NCBI RefSeq assembly: GCF_013402875.1
Contig: NZ_CP058579.1
Location: 2,790,001-2,854,000 of the forward strand
DNA from: Halorarum salinum
GTDB lineage: Archaea > Halobacteriota > Halobacteria > Halobacteriales > Haloferacaceae
Direction of reading: 5' to 3'
Length of the DNA: 64,000 nt
Part shown: positions 5,793 through 24,130 of the stretch, one piece after another
Numbering within the stretch: position 1 is the stretch's first letter
Layout of the letters: each line of letters starts with the position of its first letter
Notes under the pieces: model-generated
Seen by the model: the letters and a program-made list of their open reading frames with translations, nothing else
Told to the model about the DNA's origin: nothing
The model's database searches: none
Made by a program: the position numbers and the translations under genes

Positions 5793-6548
5793 TCACATGT
5801 ACATCCGGTCGAGCGGCTGTTCCTCCTCGCTCTGCTCCTCGAACCTGTCGGCGAGGTTCTGGTAGTACTGCTGGACCTCCTCCGCGAACTCCTGTAACGG
5901 GTCGGTGTCGATCCCGAGCCCGTACACCGACTCGGCGGCGTCGAGCAGCCTGATGGTCGCCTCGACGTCCGGGGCCAGCGCGTGGACCGGCGTGACGTAG
6001 ACGCCGACGCCGAGGTCCGACTCCATCCCCCGGGCCATGAGGGCGGCGTTCGTCCCGTCGAGGAAGCCGGCCCCCATCGGCGGCACGTCGGCCGCGGCGT
6101 CGCCGGAGAAGTGATCGGCCACGTAGTCGTCGCTGGCGACGTAGAACGCGCGGTGGTCGTTCGGCCCGTGGGGGAACGGCACGCCCGAGAGGACGGCGAT
6201 CTCCTCGACCCCCTTCGACCCGGTCCAGTCGAGGATGGCGTTCGAGAACGGCTCCGCGATGGGGACGGGGACGAGCAGTTCGCCGACGAGCACGGTCACG
6301 TCGAGGTCCGACCGGGAGTAGAGCCGCGTCGGATAGCGCGGCTTCCCCTCCTGGAACGGGGTGATCGTCGGGAGCCCCTCCGCCCGGATGTGGCCGGTCT
6401 GCTCGAGTTCGAGGTGGTCGACGAGGTAGTCGACCGCCGTCAACCCCGCGAGCCCGAACCCGGAGAACCCGGCGAGCACCGTCGCCGCGGGTTCGGTTCG
6501 GGTGTCGACGTGGAAGGTCGCTCCGCCGTCGGTGCTGGGATCAGCCAT
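5793..6548 (-). CDS. PAC2 family protein (proteasome-assembly-chaperone-like)
   Basis: 251 residues of PAC2 (PF09754) type: VLAGFSGFGLAGLTAVDYLVDHL at the N-terminus, then FQEGKPRYPTRLYSRSDLDVTVLVGELLVP and MGAGFLDGTNAALMARG, the characteristic glycine loops, ending in a glutamate-rich coiled tail (FAEEVQQYYQNLADRFEEQ). Archaeal PAC2 homologues are cytosolic; a role as proteasome-assembly chaperone is proposed from sequence kinship, not shown here. It lies upstream of trmB on the same strand with an 88-bp gap. Confidence 0.85.
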   Translation of the reverse strand: MADPSTDGGATFHVDTRTEPAATVLAGFSGFGLAGLTAVDYLVDHLELEQTGHIRAEGLPTITPFQEGKPRYPTRLYSRSDLDVTVLVGELLVPVPIAEPFSNAILDWTGSKGVEEIAVLSGVPFPHGPNDHRAFYVASDDYVADHFSGDAAADVPPMGAGFLDGTNAALMARGMESDLGVGVYVTPVHALAPDVEATIRLLDAAESVYGLGIDTDPLQEFAEEVQQYYQNLADRFEEQSEEEQPLDRMYM

Positions 6549-6771
6549 GTCCCGTCGTACGACGCGTTCGGAGTTAGTGATACCGCCCGTCGCGACGCCG
6601 CCGGGTTCGATCGCGTTCGCCCCGGTTCGACCGCGTTCGCGCCCGAGGCCCGAGGGAGCCGTGGATCCTGAGGTCGACGGGGTTCCCGATCCGGTCGGCC
6701 GGTTGCCGTGCTCCGCCGACGGCCGCGTGCGGAGGGGAACGCTTTTTCGCCGGGCCGCCCTCGCCCGCCGT

Positions 6772-7755
6772 ATGCAGGCTGGGACCGCGACGCCGACCCG
6801 GACCGAGGTTCCAGTCGACGGACCCGCCGGGTCGCTCCTCGGGTTCTACAACGAACTGCTCAACTTCCCAGGGGCGAGGGCCGCGGTCGTGCTGCTGTTC
6901 CTCGCATTCGGGGCGGTGGTCTCCCGCTACGCGATCAGGCTGCTCGGCCGACCCATCGCGCGCCGGTTCGTCAGACAGAGCGTCGCACAGACCGTCCTCC
7001 GCGGCGTCCACGTCGGCATCATCCTCCTGTTCGGCTTCGTCGGCCTGGGGGCGGCGGGGATCGAACTGGGGAACATCGTCCTCTCCGTCGGGGTGTTCTC
7101 CGCGGTGGTCGGTATCATCCTCGCGCCCATCGTCGGCTCCATCATCAACGGGCTGTTCGTCCTCGCGGATCAGCCGTTCGAGATCGGCGACATGATCGAA
7201 CTGGCCGAGGGGACCACGGGGTTCGTCGACGACATCACCCTCCGGTACACGAAGGTGTTCACCATGGACAACACGTTCGCGGTCATCCCCAACTCCGTCA
7301 TCCGTGACGACCTGGTGAAGAACTACTCGGCCGAGGACGAGCGCACCCGCCTCCAGGTGGACGTCGCGGTCACCTACGAGTCGGACGTCGAGACGGCCCG
7401 CCGCCTCATCGAGCGCGCCGCCGCCGACTGCGAGGACGTCATCGAGGGCGGCCCGGACATCCGCATCGGGACCGCGCGCTACCCGGCGAAGCCGACCTGT
7501 TACATCGACCAGTTCGGCGACCACGGCATCCACCTGCGGCTCCGCTACTGGGCGCGGCGCCCGTACAAACTGCTCACCGTCAGGTCGAAGGTCCAGACGG
7601 AGGTGTGGCGCCTGCTAAACGAGGAAGGGGTCGACGTGACCATCCCCTACCCGCACCAGCACCTCGTGTTCGACGAGACGAGCGGCGTCGCGGACGTCCG
7701 CGTGGACGCGAGTCAGGAGCCGAGCGACCGGTCGGGACCCGCCGACCGGAACTGA
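6772..7755 (+). CDS. MscS family small-conductance mechanosensitive channel
   Basis: 327 residues. Three membrane segments occupy about residues 35-125 (AAVVLLFLAFGAVVSRYAI; GVHVGIILLFGFVGLGAAGI; IVLSVGVFSAVVGIILAPIVG), the last being the glycine/alanine-rich pore helix. The beta domain follows (FEIGDMIELAEGTTGFVDDITLRYTKV; DNTFAVIPNSVI) and then the alpha/beta cytoplasmic cage. Such channels release solutes on hypo-osmotic shock, relevant to a halophile. The ATG at 6772 is preferred over an in-frame read-through of 90 codons upstream, which is arginine-rich and not hydrophobic. Confidence 0.9.
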   Translation: MQAGTATPTRTEVPVDGPAGSLLGFYNELLNFPGARAAVVLLFLAFGAVVSRYAIRLLGRPIARRFVRQSVAQTVLRGVHVGIILLFGFVGLGAAGIELGNIVLSVGVFSAVVGIILAPIVGSIINGLFVLADQPFEIGDMIELAEGTTGFVDDITLRYTKVFTMDNTFAVIPNSVIRDDLVKNYSAEDERTRLQVDVAVTYESDVETARRLIERAAADCEDVIEGGPDIRIGTARYPAKPTCYIDQFGDHGIHLRLRYWARRPYKLLTVRSKVQTEVWRLLNEEGVDVTIPYPHQHLVFDETSGVADVRVDASQEPSDRSGPADRN

Positions 7756-8170: not shown

Positions 8171-8899
8171 CTACGGTTCGTCGACCTCGCTTCCGCTGCT
8201 CCCCCCGTCACCGTCCAGGACGAGCCTGTCGACGCCGACCATCGCGAGGACGATTCCGGCCGTCGCCAGGAGGTGGACGAGCACCACCCCGAACACGAAC
8301 CCGACCACGACCGCGGCCGAGCGGTCGGGCCCGAGGACGAGGCTGCCGCCGTCCCACCCGAGGTACGCCCACACCGCCGTCGGGAGGAGCGAGAGGTACG
8401 GCGACTGCGGGAGGAGCCTGCGGAGTTCCGGGCCCCTCGTGAACCCCTCGTACTGCTCCTCCCTGGAGACGAACGCCCAGTAGACGAAGATGAGCGTGTA
8501 CATGATGCCGGACGCGAGCACGTCGGCGACCTCGCCGGGGTATCTGGTCTCGATGATCCGGAATATCGACACCGTCAGGAAGAATAGCGCGTACATCAAC
8601 AGCGCGTGGGGAAACACCCACAGCTTTGACTGGGCGTCCGGGTGGTGCAAGACCCGCTCGGTCGCCCTGTACGCCCGGACGACCCCCGCGACCGACGAGA
8701 CGAGAAACAGCACGAGCGCGGCGCCGATCCCGAGCCTGACGGCCCCCGTGTCGGCGTCCGCCAGGTCCGAGAGGTACACCGACAGCGCGGCGAAGACGCT
8801 GATCATCGTGAACAGCCGGTAGTTCTCGTTCATGAACGCGGTGACGGTCACCGGCGGCCCCCGGTCGGCCCGGCCGTCACCCTCGTCCTCCCCAGTCAC
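8171..8899 (-). CDS. multi-pass membrane protein, unknown function
   Basis: 242 residues with about six membrane segments: [88 protein letters not shown] and [20 protein letters not shown]. The N- and C-termini are acidic and soluble. No conserved motif recognised. Same strand and 61 bases downstream of the two-gene membrane operon (8961-10264), so possibly co-transcribed with it. Confidence 0.75.
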
Positions 8900-8960: not shown

Positions 8961-9626
8961 TCAGGACCGGGACCGGCGCTCGTCGAGCCGTTCGGTGAGC
9001 GCCCCGGTGATGTCCGTGAGGTGGGCGGTTCCCCAGACGGCGACGATGATGCCCCCGATGGTGTCGAACACCAGATCCAGCAGCGTGTCCTCCAGCCCGT
9101 ACTGGGTGAGCACGGACGTCGTGCCGAGCGCGAGCGCGATCTCGGCCAGGGCGAACTCGAGCACCTCCCAGAACACCCCGAACGCCAGCACGAACAGGAG
9201 GATGAACACGAACATGAACCGCGGGGGGAGCGAGACGGCGTCCGAGTGCTCCTCTATCGCCCGCGTGACGGTGTACCCGGTCGCGGCCACGACCGACGAC
9301 GAGAGCGCGTGAGTGAGGTGGTCCCACCACGGGACGTTCCGGTAGAAGTTCTCCGAGGCGCCCGGCAGGCCGACGGTGCCGAGCGCGTGGAGGAATATGG
9401 CGCTCGTGATCCACAGGGTCAGCCCCGCGTCCATCGGGAGGTCGTACTCCCGTTCGAGCAGCGCCGGTAGGTACGAGACGGCGAGCGCGACGCTCGCGTT
9501 CACGATGATGCCCGTGCTCCCGCGCTCCAGTCCGATGAACAGCAACCCGACGAGCACGATCTGCATCAGCCGGGTGAGCCGTCGCTGGCGGGCCGGCGAG
9601 ATGCGGAGGCGGTCGCGCAGCCTCAC
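8961..9626 (-). CDS. polytopic membrane protein, DUF2238/YjdF-like half of a two-gene pair
   Basis: 221 residues from a GTG whose codon overlaps the TGA of the upstream gene by 4 bases. About six membrane segments. Conserved signature positions: LPMDAGLTLWIT, the WWDHLTHALSS motif (Asp and His in a membrane helix), FGVFWEVLEFA, and DTLLDLVFDTIGGIIVA. This H/E/D pattern resembles the DUF2238/YjdF membrane family (inference). The same protein appears as the C-terminal half of the fused gene at 22769-24130. Function unknown; the partner at 9623 is almost certainly in the same complex. Confidence 0.75.
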   Translation of the reverse strand: MRLRDRLRISPARQRRLTRLMQIVLVGLLFIGLERGSTGIIVNASVALAVSYLPALLEREYDLPMDAGLTLWITSAIFLHALGTVGLPGASENFYRNVPWWDHLTHALSSSVVAATGYTVTRAIEEHSDAVSLPPRFMFVFILLFVLAFGVFWEVLEFALAEIALALGTTSVLTQYGLEDTLLDLVFDTIGGIIVAVWGTAHLTDITGALTERLDERRSRS

Positions 9627-10264
9627 AGTTCGGACACCTCCACGTCGATCCGGGTGTCCGCGTTCGACTGCCGCCGGAAGTAGAACTCGAACAGGAACCC
9701 GGCGACGACGCCCGCCACCGTCGCGGCGACGAAGTCGAGCATGAGCGCCCGCTCGACGACCTCCTCCGGCCGCCCGTCCAGCAGGAACCCCGTTCCGATC
9801 AACGCGTCCGAGGCGTATCTGAGCACGGCCCAGACGCCCGACGCGGCCATCGTCGCGATGGTGACGAAGAAGACCGCGAACCCGTGACTCATCCTGACCG
9901 GCGTGAACACGTCGAGCTCGACCGCGACGATGAGCGCGACCGCCGCCACCGCGAGATACGTCGTCACCCGCCCGGAGAACGTGATCCCCGCGACCGTCTC
10001 CCCGGTAAGCAGTACCCTCCCGACGGCGGGGAGGCCCGCGAGAAGCAGCAGTTCCCACGGCAACATGGCGGTGGCGTCGCGGAACGCGACCGCCGGTACG
10101 ACCGCGATCGCCACGACGAGCAGCACGAACACCCCCCAGACGGCCTCCCCGCCCGTGAGGAGTTCCCCCAGCGCGCCGACGGTCATGACCGACAGCAGGA
10201 GCCAGCCACCCCAGGCGTTGAGTCGCTGGTCCTCGAGGACATCGCGTAGCCTACGTGCCTCCAT
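9623..10264 (-). CDS. polytopic membrane protein, first gene of a translationally coupled pair
   Basis: 213 residues, about six membrane segments (WLLLSVMTVGALGELL; AVWGVFVLLVVAIAVVPAVA; LPWELLLLAGLPAVGRVLL; TYLAVAAVALIVAVELDVF; FAVFFVTIATMAASGVWAVL; FVAATVAGVVAGFLFEFYF). Charged positions in helices include VPAVAFRDA and VELDVFTP. It is homologous by eye to the N-terminal half of the 22769 gene. The start ATG at 10264 (MEARRLRDVL) is preferred to the longer frame because it aligns with the start of the paralogue. Its stop overlaps the next start (CTGTGAGG). Confidence 0.75.
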   Translation of the reverse strand: MEARRLRDVLEDQRLNAWGGWLLLSVMTVGALGELLTGGEAVWGVFVLLVVAIAVVPAVAFRDATAMLPWELLLLAGLPAVGRVLLTGETVAGITFSGRVTTYLAVAAVALIVAVELDVFTPVRMSHGFAVFFVTIATMAASGVWAVLRYASDALIGTGFLLDGRPEEVVERALMLDFVAATVAGVVAGFLFEFYFRRQSNADTRIDVEVSEL

Positions 10265-10321: not shown

Positions 10322-11260
10322 TCACCCGAAGAGCGAGACGTACGCCACCGCGTAGGCAGCCGCGGCGACGGTCACCGCCGACAGCCCGGTGTAGGCCGCC
10401 CGCTCCGGCGCCGGCCGTGCGAACTCCCGTCTCCGGATCCGGACCCGCGGCGCGACCCCGACGAGCCCGACCGCGAGGACGCTGAACACGAACGGGTACG
10501 ACAGGTCGAGCGTGGGCGCAGGGATGAGGAACGCGCTGGCGGCGTACCCCGCGCCGGCGGCCGCTCGGGCGTCCACGCGCGGCAGCGACCGCCCCTCGCG
10601 CAGTCGGGTCCAGACGAGCAGCGCGGCCCAGACGGTCGCGAGTTCGAGGCCAAACGCCCCCAGCAGGTGGAGCGTCGGGTCGGGGTGGAGCGTGACGGTC
10701 TCGATCGACGGCGACGCGAACGGGTAGAACAGCGCCGGGGGCTCGCCCGTGAACACGTCGCCGAACGGGTGGCTCGCGAGGCCGACGAGCGCCAGCGCGA
10801 ACGTCCCCCGGGGGCCGAGGTCCGCGCGGCGGAGAACGACCTCGGCCACCGCGAGACAGGCGAGCGCGAAGGCGATCGCCACCAGGCCGGCGAGCACGCC
10901 GGAGAGGACGGCGGTCGTCGCGACCAGCGCCCCCGTAACCGCGACGCCGAGCGCGCGCGCCGGCGTCCGCCCGTCGACCCACGCAGCCGCGGCGAGCGCG
11001 GCGACCGGCGCGACGACGAGCGAGTGGGTCATCCCGCGGTGGACGACGTTCCCCGTCTCCCAGAACGCGGACGCGAGCTCGAGCGGACCGCCGCCGAGCG
11101 CGCCGGCGAGGCCGACGACGGCGTAGCCGATGTCGACGTCGGGAACGGCGGCGAACGCGGCCGCCACGGCGCCGAACACGAGGGCCCGACGCGGCGACTC
11201 GAACCGTGTGGCCGCGCCGGCCACCAGCGCGAACGCGAGGAGGGCGTGCCCGACGAACAT
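10322..11260 (-). CDS. membrane-bound metal-dependent hydrolase, YdjM/DUF457 family
   Basis: 312 residues. The N-terminus MFVGHALLAFALVAG and the motifs VPDVDIGY and VVHRGMTHSLVVAP (HRGxTHS) are the metal-binding signature of the YdjM/LexA-binding, DUF457 membrane hydrolase family; HPFGDVFTGEPP supplies a further histidine and aspartate. Around eight hydrophobic segments follow. The substrate is unknown; family members sit in the membrane with the active site near the surface. CTTATC at 11283-11288, read on the minus strand, is a TATA box 23-28 bases before the start. Confidence 0.8.
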   Translation of the reverse strand: MFVGHALLAFALVAGAATRFESPRRALVFGAVAAAFAAVPDVDIGYAVVGLAGALGGGPLELASAFWETGNVVHRGMTHSLVVAPVAALAAAAWVDGRTPARALGVAVTGALVATTAVLSGVLAGLVAIAFALACLAVAEVVLRRADLGPRGTFALALVGLASHPFGDVFTGEPPALFYPFASPSIETVTLHPDPTLHLLGAFGLELATVWAALLVWTRLREGRSLPRVDARAAAGAGYAASAFLIPAPTLDLSYPFVFSVLAVGLVGVAPRVRIRRREFARPAPERAAYTGLSAVTVAAAAYAVAYVSLFG

Positions 11261-11405: not shown

Positions 11406-11951
11406 CTACGCGTCGTCGGCCAGTTTCGTCCACTCCTGCTCGATCCGGGAGTTCCCGCGGACCACCGTATCCCCCTCGACCCGAAGCCGCGTCTTGCGGA
11501 GTTCGATGGACCGCACCTCGCCGACCGTCCCGTCGACGTCGACCCGGTCGCCCGGGTTGAAGTCGGGGTCGCGGAGGAGGTAGACGCCCGCGACCGCGTC
11601 CGCGATCATGTTCGACAGGGCGTACGAGACGCCGAGCGCGAGAAAACCCGCCGCCGTACCGAGCGACCGGGCGATGCCCTCGAGGCCGACGACCGAGAGG
11701 AACGAGAGCCCCACGGCGAACCAGAGGAACAGGCCGACCAACGTCGCGAGGAACTGGCGGTACACCGGCGACTCGCCAGGCAGCGCCCTGCGGAGGACGG
11801 CCCGGACGAGGGACAGCAGGAGTTTCACAGCGACGACGGCCAGCACGAGGAACACGACCCCCGCGATCAGTCGGGGGAGCGCGGCCTCTACGTCGGCGAG
11901 GAACGCCCGCAGCGCTTCGTCCACGACCCCGGCGACCGACAGCAGGAACAT
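11406..11951 (-). CDS. short MscS-like mechanosensitive channel protein
   Basis: 181 residues, much shorter than classical MscS. Three membrane segments (LIAGVVFLVLAVVAVKLLL; FLATLVGLFLWFAVGLSFL; LGTAAGFLALGVSYALSNMIAD) end in a pore-like helix, followed only by the beta domain (FNPGDRVDVDGTVGEVRSIELRKTRL, VVRGNSRI). The large alpha/beta cytoplasmic cage is absent, and the protein ends just after the beta domain at TKLADDA. It may form a cage-less channel or work with the full-length protein at 6772. TATA-like CATAAAT at 11976-11982 is 25-31 bases upstream. Confidence 0.8.
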   Translation of the reverse strand: MFLLSVAGVVDEALRAFLADVEAALPRLIAGVVFLVLAVVAVKLLLSLVRAVLRRALPGESPVYRQFLATLVGLFLWFAVGLSFLSVVGLEGIARSLGTAAGFLALGVSYALSNMIADAVAGVYLLRDPDFNPGDRVDVDGTVGEVRSIELRKTRLRVEGDTVVRGNSRIEQEWTKLADDA

Positions 11952-22768: not shown

Positions 22769-24130
22769 ATGGTTTCGTACATGGTCACGACGCGACCGCT
22801 GGTGACGCTACGTGGACTCCGCGCCGAAGTCGCGTGGCTGCTCGTCGTCGTGCTCGTCGCTTGCGCGGTTCGGTTCCTGACGCTCGGGGAACTGGACTGG
22901 GCCGTGTTCGTCGCGCTCGTCGTGGCCGTCGCGGTCGTTCCGCCGGCCATCGAACGCGACCCGGCCGTGACGATGCCCTGGCCCCTGCTCGCGCTGGTCT
23001 CGGTTCCAGTTCTCCTGCGTGCGGCCGGCGTGGTGAGCGCGGCCACGCCGTTCCTCGTGATGGCGGGGCTGGCGCTGCTCGCCGCCATCGCGCTCGACTC
23101 GTACACGTCGCTCGCGCTGACCCCCCGCTTCTCCGTCGTCTTCGTGATCGTCACTACGATGGCGTTCGCGGCCGTCTGGACCGTCGGTACCTGGGCGTCC
23201 GACGTCCTCCTCGGGACCGAGTTCGTGGGCGGACAGACGGAGCTCATGTGGGACATCGTGGCCGCGACCGGGGCGGGCGTCGTCGCCGGGTTCGTGTTCG
23301 AGGCGTACTTCCGGCTCTCGGATCGCCCCGACCGTCCCGACGCACCGACTGGCGACACCCGAGTCGAGGGGGTCGCCGAGGAATCGGACGACGACGGGTC
23401 CGCGGACGATGCCGGATCCGCGGACGACCGCGCCGAACGCTCCGACCACGACGGCCGCCACGAGCGGCCCAATCGACGGGACACGGCCGAGTCGAAGGTG
23501 GATCTCCCCGGCGACCGTCGCCAGCAACGGTGGGCGGTTCACGCGATGCGCTCGATCCTGGCGCTCATCGCGGTCGTGGGCGCCGTCCAGTTCAACGTCG
23601 GAATGTTCCTCAACGGCGCCGTCACGCTGGCGGTCACGTTCGCCCCCGCCCTCCTCAGGCGGGAGTACGGCTACCCGATGGGCGTCGGCCTGACGCTGTG
23701 GGTGACCGCGGCCGTCGGCCTCCACGCCGTCGGCGTGATCGGACCGTATCGACAGTTCGGCTGGTACGACTCGGTCGCGCACGCGCTGTCGGCGACGCTC
23801 ATCGCTGGCATCGGCTACGCGCTGGCGCGCGCCGTCGAACTCCACACCGACGCGGTCGACTTCCAGCCCACGTTCCGGAGCGTGTTCGTCGTCCTGTTCG
23901 TCCTCGCCGCGGGCGTCGCCTGGGAGCTCCTCGAGTTCGCGAGCGGCGGCGTCGCGGCAGTCTTCGGGGGACGAGCGGCGCTGGCTCAGTACGGTACCGG
24001 CGACATCGTCAACGACCTCGCGTTCAACGCAGCGGGCGGCGTGCTGATCGCGGTGCTCACCGTCGGCCGTTTCGAGGCCGTCGCTCGGTCGCTCGCGAGT
24101 CGGGTCGGCGTTTTCGCGCGGAATCAGTAG
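22769..24130 (+). CDS. large membrane protein, fusion of both halves of the 8961-10264 pair
   Basis: 453 residues. Residues about 1-190 (six hydrophobic segments ending VVAGFVFEAYFRLSD) resemble the 9623-10264 product. A long acidic soluble linker of ~65 residues (DTRVEGVAEESDDDGSADD and beyond) follows. Residues about 256-453 (WAVHAMRSILAL; REYGYPMGVGLTLW; WYDSVAHALSATL; AWELLEFASGG; DIVNDLAFNAAGGVL) resemble the 8961-9626 product. Function unknown. An alternative ATG at 22781 would shorten it by four residues. It is the last core gene before tRNA-Ala and the island. Confidence 0.8.
   Translation: MVSYMVTTRPLVTLRGLRAEVAWLLVVVLVACAVRFLTLGELDWAVFVALVVAVAVVPPAIERDPAVTMPWPLLALVSVPVLLRAAGVVSAATPFLVMAGLALLAAIALDSYTSLALTPRFSVVFVIVTTMAFAAVWTVGTWASDVLLGTEFVGGQTELMWDIVAATGAGVVAGFVFEAYFRLSDRPDRPDAPTGDTRVEGVAEESDDDGSADDAGSADDRAERSDHDGRHERPNRRDTAESKVDLPGDRRQQRWAVHAMRSILALIAVVGAVQFNVGMFLNGAVTLAVTFAPALLRREYGYPMGVGLTLWVTAAVGLHAVGVIGPYRQFGWYDSVAHALSATLIAGIGYALARAVELHTDAVDFQPTFRSVFVVLFVLAAGVAWELLEFASGGVAAVFGGRAALAQYGTGDIVNDLAFNAAGGVLIAVLTVGRFEAVARSLASRVGVFARNQ

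Follow-up and report, generated by a model that had tools for sequence, protein, structure and literature searches.

What might two overlapping genes for small membrane proteins be doing in a haloarchaeon that also carries both as one fused gene? The question comes from a 64,000-nucleotide stretch of Halorarum salinum DNA (the window), in which a first-pass annotation had matched a translationally coupled gene pair, half for half, to a single longer gene. The three open frames lie where it placed them (Table 1). The protein of the first gene of the pair, N, aligns with the first half of the fusion (42% over 142 aa, E 2e-19), and that of the second, C, with the second half (41% over 202 aa, E 1e-51). 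Alignment gives significant similarity for each half, and the lack of similarity that the annotation had named as its refutation was not found. The coupling is visible at the N/C junction, CTGTGAGG, where the GTG of C shares 4 nt with the TGA of N. An acidic linker joins the halves of the fusion at about residues 186-248 and is disordered in the structure model (block pLDDT about 50), and the motifs WxDxxxHALS and WExLEFA are found in both pair and fusion. The “D-N-x-GG end” is real, but its wording was imprecise: the pair reads DLVFDTIGG and the fusion DLAFNAAGG, and D-x-x-x-[D/N]-x-x-G-G is a better description. What was missed is that the halves are paralogous, that the putative active site is kept in the C half alone and that the family can be placed.

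Table 1. Features of the N/C locus, its fusion paralogue and their neighbours (positions in the window)
Feature	Position	Strand	Description
N subunit gene	9623..10264	-	213 aa; Wok/DUF2238-like six-helix membrane protein, presumed inactive paralogue
C subunit gene	8961..9626	-	221 aa, GTG start; divergent DUF2238/Wok-family (Lipocone) membrane protein, putative active site intact
GTGA overlap, N stop/C start	9623..9626	-	4 nt; translational coupling
WDHLTHALS motif, codons D102 to H106	9309..9323	-	Start of helix H2; D, H and S invariant in C, absent from N
WEVLEF motif, codons E154 to E157	9156..9167	-	Helix H3; the two E residues are kept throughout C and the single-domain relatives and are substituted in N
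D180 to D184 codons	9075..9089	-	Start of helix H4; the two D residues are kept throughout C and the single-domain relatives
Natural N-C fusion paralogue	22769..24130	+	453 aa
N domain of fusion	about 22778-23353	+	
Acidic linker of fusion	about 23354-23485	+	
C domain of fusion	about 23486-24115	+	
YdjM-family (PF04307) membrane protein	10322..11260	-	Predicted metal-dependent hydrolase; directly upstream, same direction; PF04307 E 1.9e-16
Membrane protein	8171-8899	-	242 aa; directly downstream of N/C pair
MscS-type mechanosensitive channel gene	6502-7755	+	Flanks region
MscS-type mechanosensitive channel gene	11406-11951	-	Flanks region

The kinship of the two halves is revealed only by profiles and by single-domain relatives. 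Direct BLAST of the window N protein against the window C protein detects none (E 0.59); the N half of the fusion aligns with the window C protein at E 5e-4. When profiles are compared (hhalign), N matches C at E 1.4e-9 over 183 columns. A set of single-domain proteins, the source genomes of which are methanogens (mcrA is present), matches the N profile at E 1.5e-20 in profile-profile comparison and the C profile at E 2.4e-36 over 196 columns (hhalign). Reversed profiles, which served as controls, gave E values of 0.0065 to 0.46. Individual single-domain proteins match both halves about equally; for example, the one at locus L108 matches N at 6e-13 and C at 2e-13. As far as sequence comparison goes, the paralogy of N and C is well shown. 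A joint tree places the N domains in one group (100) and unites the C domains with the lone C genes in another (100), which points to an old duplication with no exchange of roles. The single-domain form may well be ancestral, which would set the direction of the duplication; the tree is one without an outgroup.

The single-domain proteins also help to place the C half. DUF2238 (PF09997) covers part of the Wok family of the Lipocone superfamily (PMC12419801). The window C protein matches DUF2238 at 21.8 bits (E 1.9e-4), which is below the Pfam curated cut-off of 26.4 bits. Several haloarchaeal C halves, with their neighbours in frame, exceed this cut-off (26.8-27.8 bits), as do methanogen relatives (L107 at 31.7 and L108 at 30.7 bits), and 20 of the 22 members of the alignment of C and single-domain proteins match DUF2238 at E 0.01 or better. 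The C profile is homologous over its full length to the set that includes L107 and L108. These matches place the C half, as a divergent member of DUF2238, in the Wok family. The N half falls into no Pfam family; its scattered matches (AOX, Sterol_MT_C, DUF2070 and others) are taken as chance, being weak and differing from member to member. No NCBIfam match was found for the N, C or fusion protein, and in the plasmid records checked the genes of both families are annotated “hypothetical protein.” The first-pass annotation had called the function unknown. This remains correct for the biochemistry; it no longer holds for the family, which can be assigned to DUF2238, Wok and the Lipocones and has a specific published prediction.

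Predicted structures agree with this placement. The Wok layout consists of two N-terminal helices, a four-helix core and a C-terminal tail; the H3-H4 linker of Wok is described as a “handle” (PMC12419801). The AlphaFold2 model of the window C protein (pLDDT 85.9) has the same order of helices and tail, with two N-terminal helices (11-35 and 38-61), four more (67-83, 101-127, 135-167 and 178-203) and a tail (206-217); its H3-H4 linker, at about 168-177, is present and non-helical. The AlphaFold2 model of the fusion (pLDDT 83.7, pTM 0.82) has six helices in each half and would fit an arrangement in which the two halves are held in a set position relative to each other. A sequence-profile search of the PDB gave no match, and fold searches of the PDB with the fusion and with C alone (Foldseek, VIA-align) gave none at E <= 0.001 or Z >= 8. 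The matches that did appear in the fold searches are unrelated helical proteins; a new fold is not implied.

The two halves differ most in the residues of the putative active site. For Lipocones, helices 2, 3 and 4 are proposed to contribute a histidine, a glutamate and an aspartate, respectively, to this site (PMC12419801). The residues were aligned column by column for 88 C, 15 single-domain and 85 N domains. In the numbering of the window C protein, D102, H106, E154, E157, D180 and D184 are present in 100% of the C halves and the single-domain relatives, so the C half carries the histidine in H2, the glutamate in H3, the aspartate in H4 and the second polar positions. The N half has R, Q or S at position 106, mostly A at 154, R or Q at 157 and mostly A at 180, and it retains W153 (97%) and, at 184, an acidic side chain (D 54%, E 38%). 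In 203 distinct units, from haloarchaea and a few methanogens, the motifs WDxxTHxxS and WExxE occur in 203 of 203 C domains and in 0 of 203 N domains. Because the active-site residues are lost and the motifs are missing throughout, we infer that N is catalytically inactive; it lacks the H, E and D of an active Wok member and is filed as an inactive homologue.

This asymmetry also bears on a different kind of explanation. Transporters with internal pseudo-symmetry typically consist of two homologous halves, split or fused, and their functional residues are usually kept in both. N and C could similarly be the six-helix halves of a transporter, flippase or channel, with the conserved acids and histidine binding an ion or a lipid. 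The two homologous halves that are found split or fused fit such a reading, as do the MscS channel genes of the window, a homologue of which was found no more than 8 kb from the pair in 57 of 80 related loci. We nonetheless consider it unlikely, since nearly all of the conserved polar residues are in one half, the single-domain relatives carry identical residues and the residue set fits the active-site prediction published for an enzyme superfamily.

The genes are widespread and are seldom separated. The C family was detected in 139 of 145 sampled haloarchaeal genomes (it is absent from 6) and the N family in 136 of 145. Given this wide occurrence, the conserved motifs and families lie far beyond chance. 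Among the matches listed, 109 of 150 N matches have a C match directly downstream; for most of the remaining listed N matches, the loci were fetched and inspected individually. One lone N without an adjacent C was seen (L217, 1550-2176), directly downstream of YdjM. At L217 the usual following C gene is missing, and the genome has another N-C pair (L270). As read from gene order, pairing is near-obligate and well shown, with N almost never lacking an adjacent C.

The 203 units include those of named genomes from a search of genome contigs with the haloarchaeal alignment subset A3, a search that favours close relatives of the window pair. They comprise 167 split pairs, each with N ahead of C, 33 N-C fusions and 3 C-N fusions. 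A 4-nt stop/start overlap is possible in 139 of the 167 split pairs, which is an upper figure because the start codons were picked nearest to the overlap. Haloarchaea with only one form, which the annotation had suggested looking for, do exist: at least one genome (G029) carries the fusion without the split pair, and several carry the split pair without the fusion. A tree of 127 units requires at least four changes between the split and fused states; N-C fusions occupy three or more distinct positions in it, C-N fusions a single one. The C-N fusions (L077, 4650-5939; L078, 4623-5927; L087, 5198-6448) come from genomes of two families and form one clade; their C domains group with stand-alone C genes. 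The fetched loci include 12 haloarchaeal C domains standing alone (the one at L098 is incomplete), most of them in the C-N fusion clade. The stand-alone C genes at L246, L249-L253, L255, L268 and L274 have the active-site motif intact, and each has a YdjM-like gene about 80-200 bp away on the opposite strand. Since the lone-C clade has no adjacent N, C may work there alone or with an N supplied in trans.

The genome of the window has a second split N-C pair (L067, 4631-5853) and a divergent lone C gene (L068, 5170-5772), with four C-domain copies in all. The N-C fusions at L111, L123, L130 and L133, all from one methanogen family (f12), nest inside the haloarchaeal fusion clade, which suggests gene transfer between methanogens and haloarchaea.

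From the existence of a fusion, the annotation had predicted that the separate proteins form one complex. That prediction is strengthened by the repeated split and fused changes and by the reversed domain order; the physical N-C heteromer itself is something that we infer from gene and domain arrangements. N and C might instead share a pathway without touching each other, with the fusions and the gene order reflecting co-regulation alone, and the lone C genes would be in keeping with this. Such an arrangement seems improbable to us: at least four changes of state and both domain orders are hard to explain by co-expression alone, an N without active-site residues has no obvious role without a partner, and the pTM of the fusion model suggests a defined mutual placement of the halves.

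The most consistent neighbour of the pair is the YdjM-family gene. It is adjacent to N on the upstream side in 53 of 80 named haloarchaeal loci, in the same order as in the window. With a wider profile, a YdjM gene turned up no more than 1.5 kb away from 95 of 118 split pairs, 10 of 12 lone haloarchaeal C genes, 6 of 24 N-C fusions and 2 of 3 C-N fusions, counts that omit loci with short flanks unless a match is present and therefore favour matches. Near the N-C fusions, the C-N fusions and the lone C genes, it is mostly on the opposite strand. With 8 YdjM genes in the 4.26 Mb of the window's genome, about 1% of cases would be expected to have one at this distance by chance. Since differing gene arrangements share this partner family, the counts argue for a functional link between YdjM and the N/C family; the YdjM proteins are hydrolases by prediction only. 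The 242-aa membrane protein on the other side of the pair has no Pfam match and no homologue in 80 related loci.

For the reaction itself, the superfamily is the guide. Wok proteins are predicted to exchange phospholipid head groups, possibly in cardiolipin synthesis, and some have been proposed to replace the HKD cardiolipin synthase in bacterial neighbourhoods (PMC12419801). Haloarchaea make cardiolipins, and their synthesis is reported to go up on osmotic shock (PMC9385802). The N-C complex could then be a second cardiolipin or glycocardiolipin synthase that joins two archaeal lipids by head-group exchange. However, displacement of the HKD enzyme was not seen: PLD-type (HKD) proteins are present in 141 of 141 sampled haloarchaea, so the bacterial argument that equates Wok with cardiolipin synthase does not apply here. 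A separate putative haloarchaeal Cls group has already been described (PMC9385802), and none of the conserved neighbours was recognised as a gene of lipid biosynthesis. We therefore do not favour cardiolipin synthesis as the specific reaction and regard it as a doubtful assignment. The window C protein is itself no PLD-type enzyme in disguise; it has no PLD Pfam match and no HKD motif, as it lacks lysine altogether.

The reading that we prefer, and hold to be probable, is that of an enzyme-pseudoenzyme membrane heteromer in which C is the active subunit and N its partner, acting on the head groups of ether lipids. N and C would descend, by an old duplication, from one ancestral six-helix domain of the DUF2238/Wok Lipocone type. 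In C, the putative active-site residues D102, H106, E154, E157, D180 and D184 would sit at the mouth of a four-helix cone. N would have the same helices with most of these residues lost and would serve as a structural or regulatory (pseudoenzyme) partner, and the coupled genes or the single fused chain would ensure a one-to-one assembly. On the outer side of the membrane, the complex would cleave off or exchange a head group that is linked through phosphate to an archaeal ether lipid or to a polyprenyl carrier; this lipid chemistry is predicted from the superfamily only. An outward-facing active site is suggested by the superfamily prediction together with an N-in/C-in charge count, which is weakly informative because haloarchaeal proteins are acidic. 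The neighbouring YdjM-family protein would act in the same pathway. More tentatively, and with rather less confidence than in the heteromer, we propose that an obligate enzyme-pseudoenzyme Lipocone heteromer and a YdjM partner remodel the head groups of outer-leaflet ether lipids across haloarchaea and some methanogens.

Among known systems, DUF2238/Wok (PMC12419801) is alike in the profile of the C half, the two extra N-terminal helices with the four-helix core and the H/E/D pattern; E. coli gave a match in the control search with PF09997. What differs here is the company of the C domain: a degenerate paralogue, N, is either encoded next to it or fused to it, and the main text of PMC12419801 describes neither a degenerate-partner arrangement nor a YdjM neighbour for Wok. 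The cpCone and VanZ-1 Lipocones do have a duplicated domain with an inactive second copy (PMC12419801), so an active and an inactive copy likewise occur in one protein. They are, however, other Lipocone families, and the inactive copy is second there. Here it is usually a separate gene; it comes first in most fusions and second only in the rare C-N fusions. The phosphatidylserine synthases PTDSS1/2 are proposed to have the superfamily and the head-group exchange chemistry in common with the C half (PMC12419801), but they are circularly permuted, and no sequence or fold match to them was found in this analysis. The PLD-type (HKD) cardiolipin synthases are unrelated to the C half, with a possible overlap in product. 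The C family is part of a described superfamily, and other Lipocone families are already known to pair active with inactive domains. What seems to be missing from the literature examined is any account of the N partner in archaea, of the split pairs and the fusions of either order, or of the association with YdjM.

Few of the sampled haloarchaea lack the family, and it is often present in several copies. Its placement among the Lipocones yields a concrete hypothesis, namely that of head-group chemistry on outer-leaflet lipids, and does so in organisms that are genetically tractable. The asymmetric pair, fused repeatedly and in either order, also offers a clear natural case of an active-site domain that keeps a degenerate paralogue as its partner. 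If the proposal is true, the Lipocone heteromer together with YdjM would constitute a widespread lipid-modification step of archaea that has so far had no gene assigned to it.
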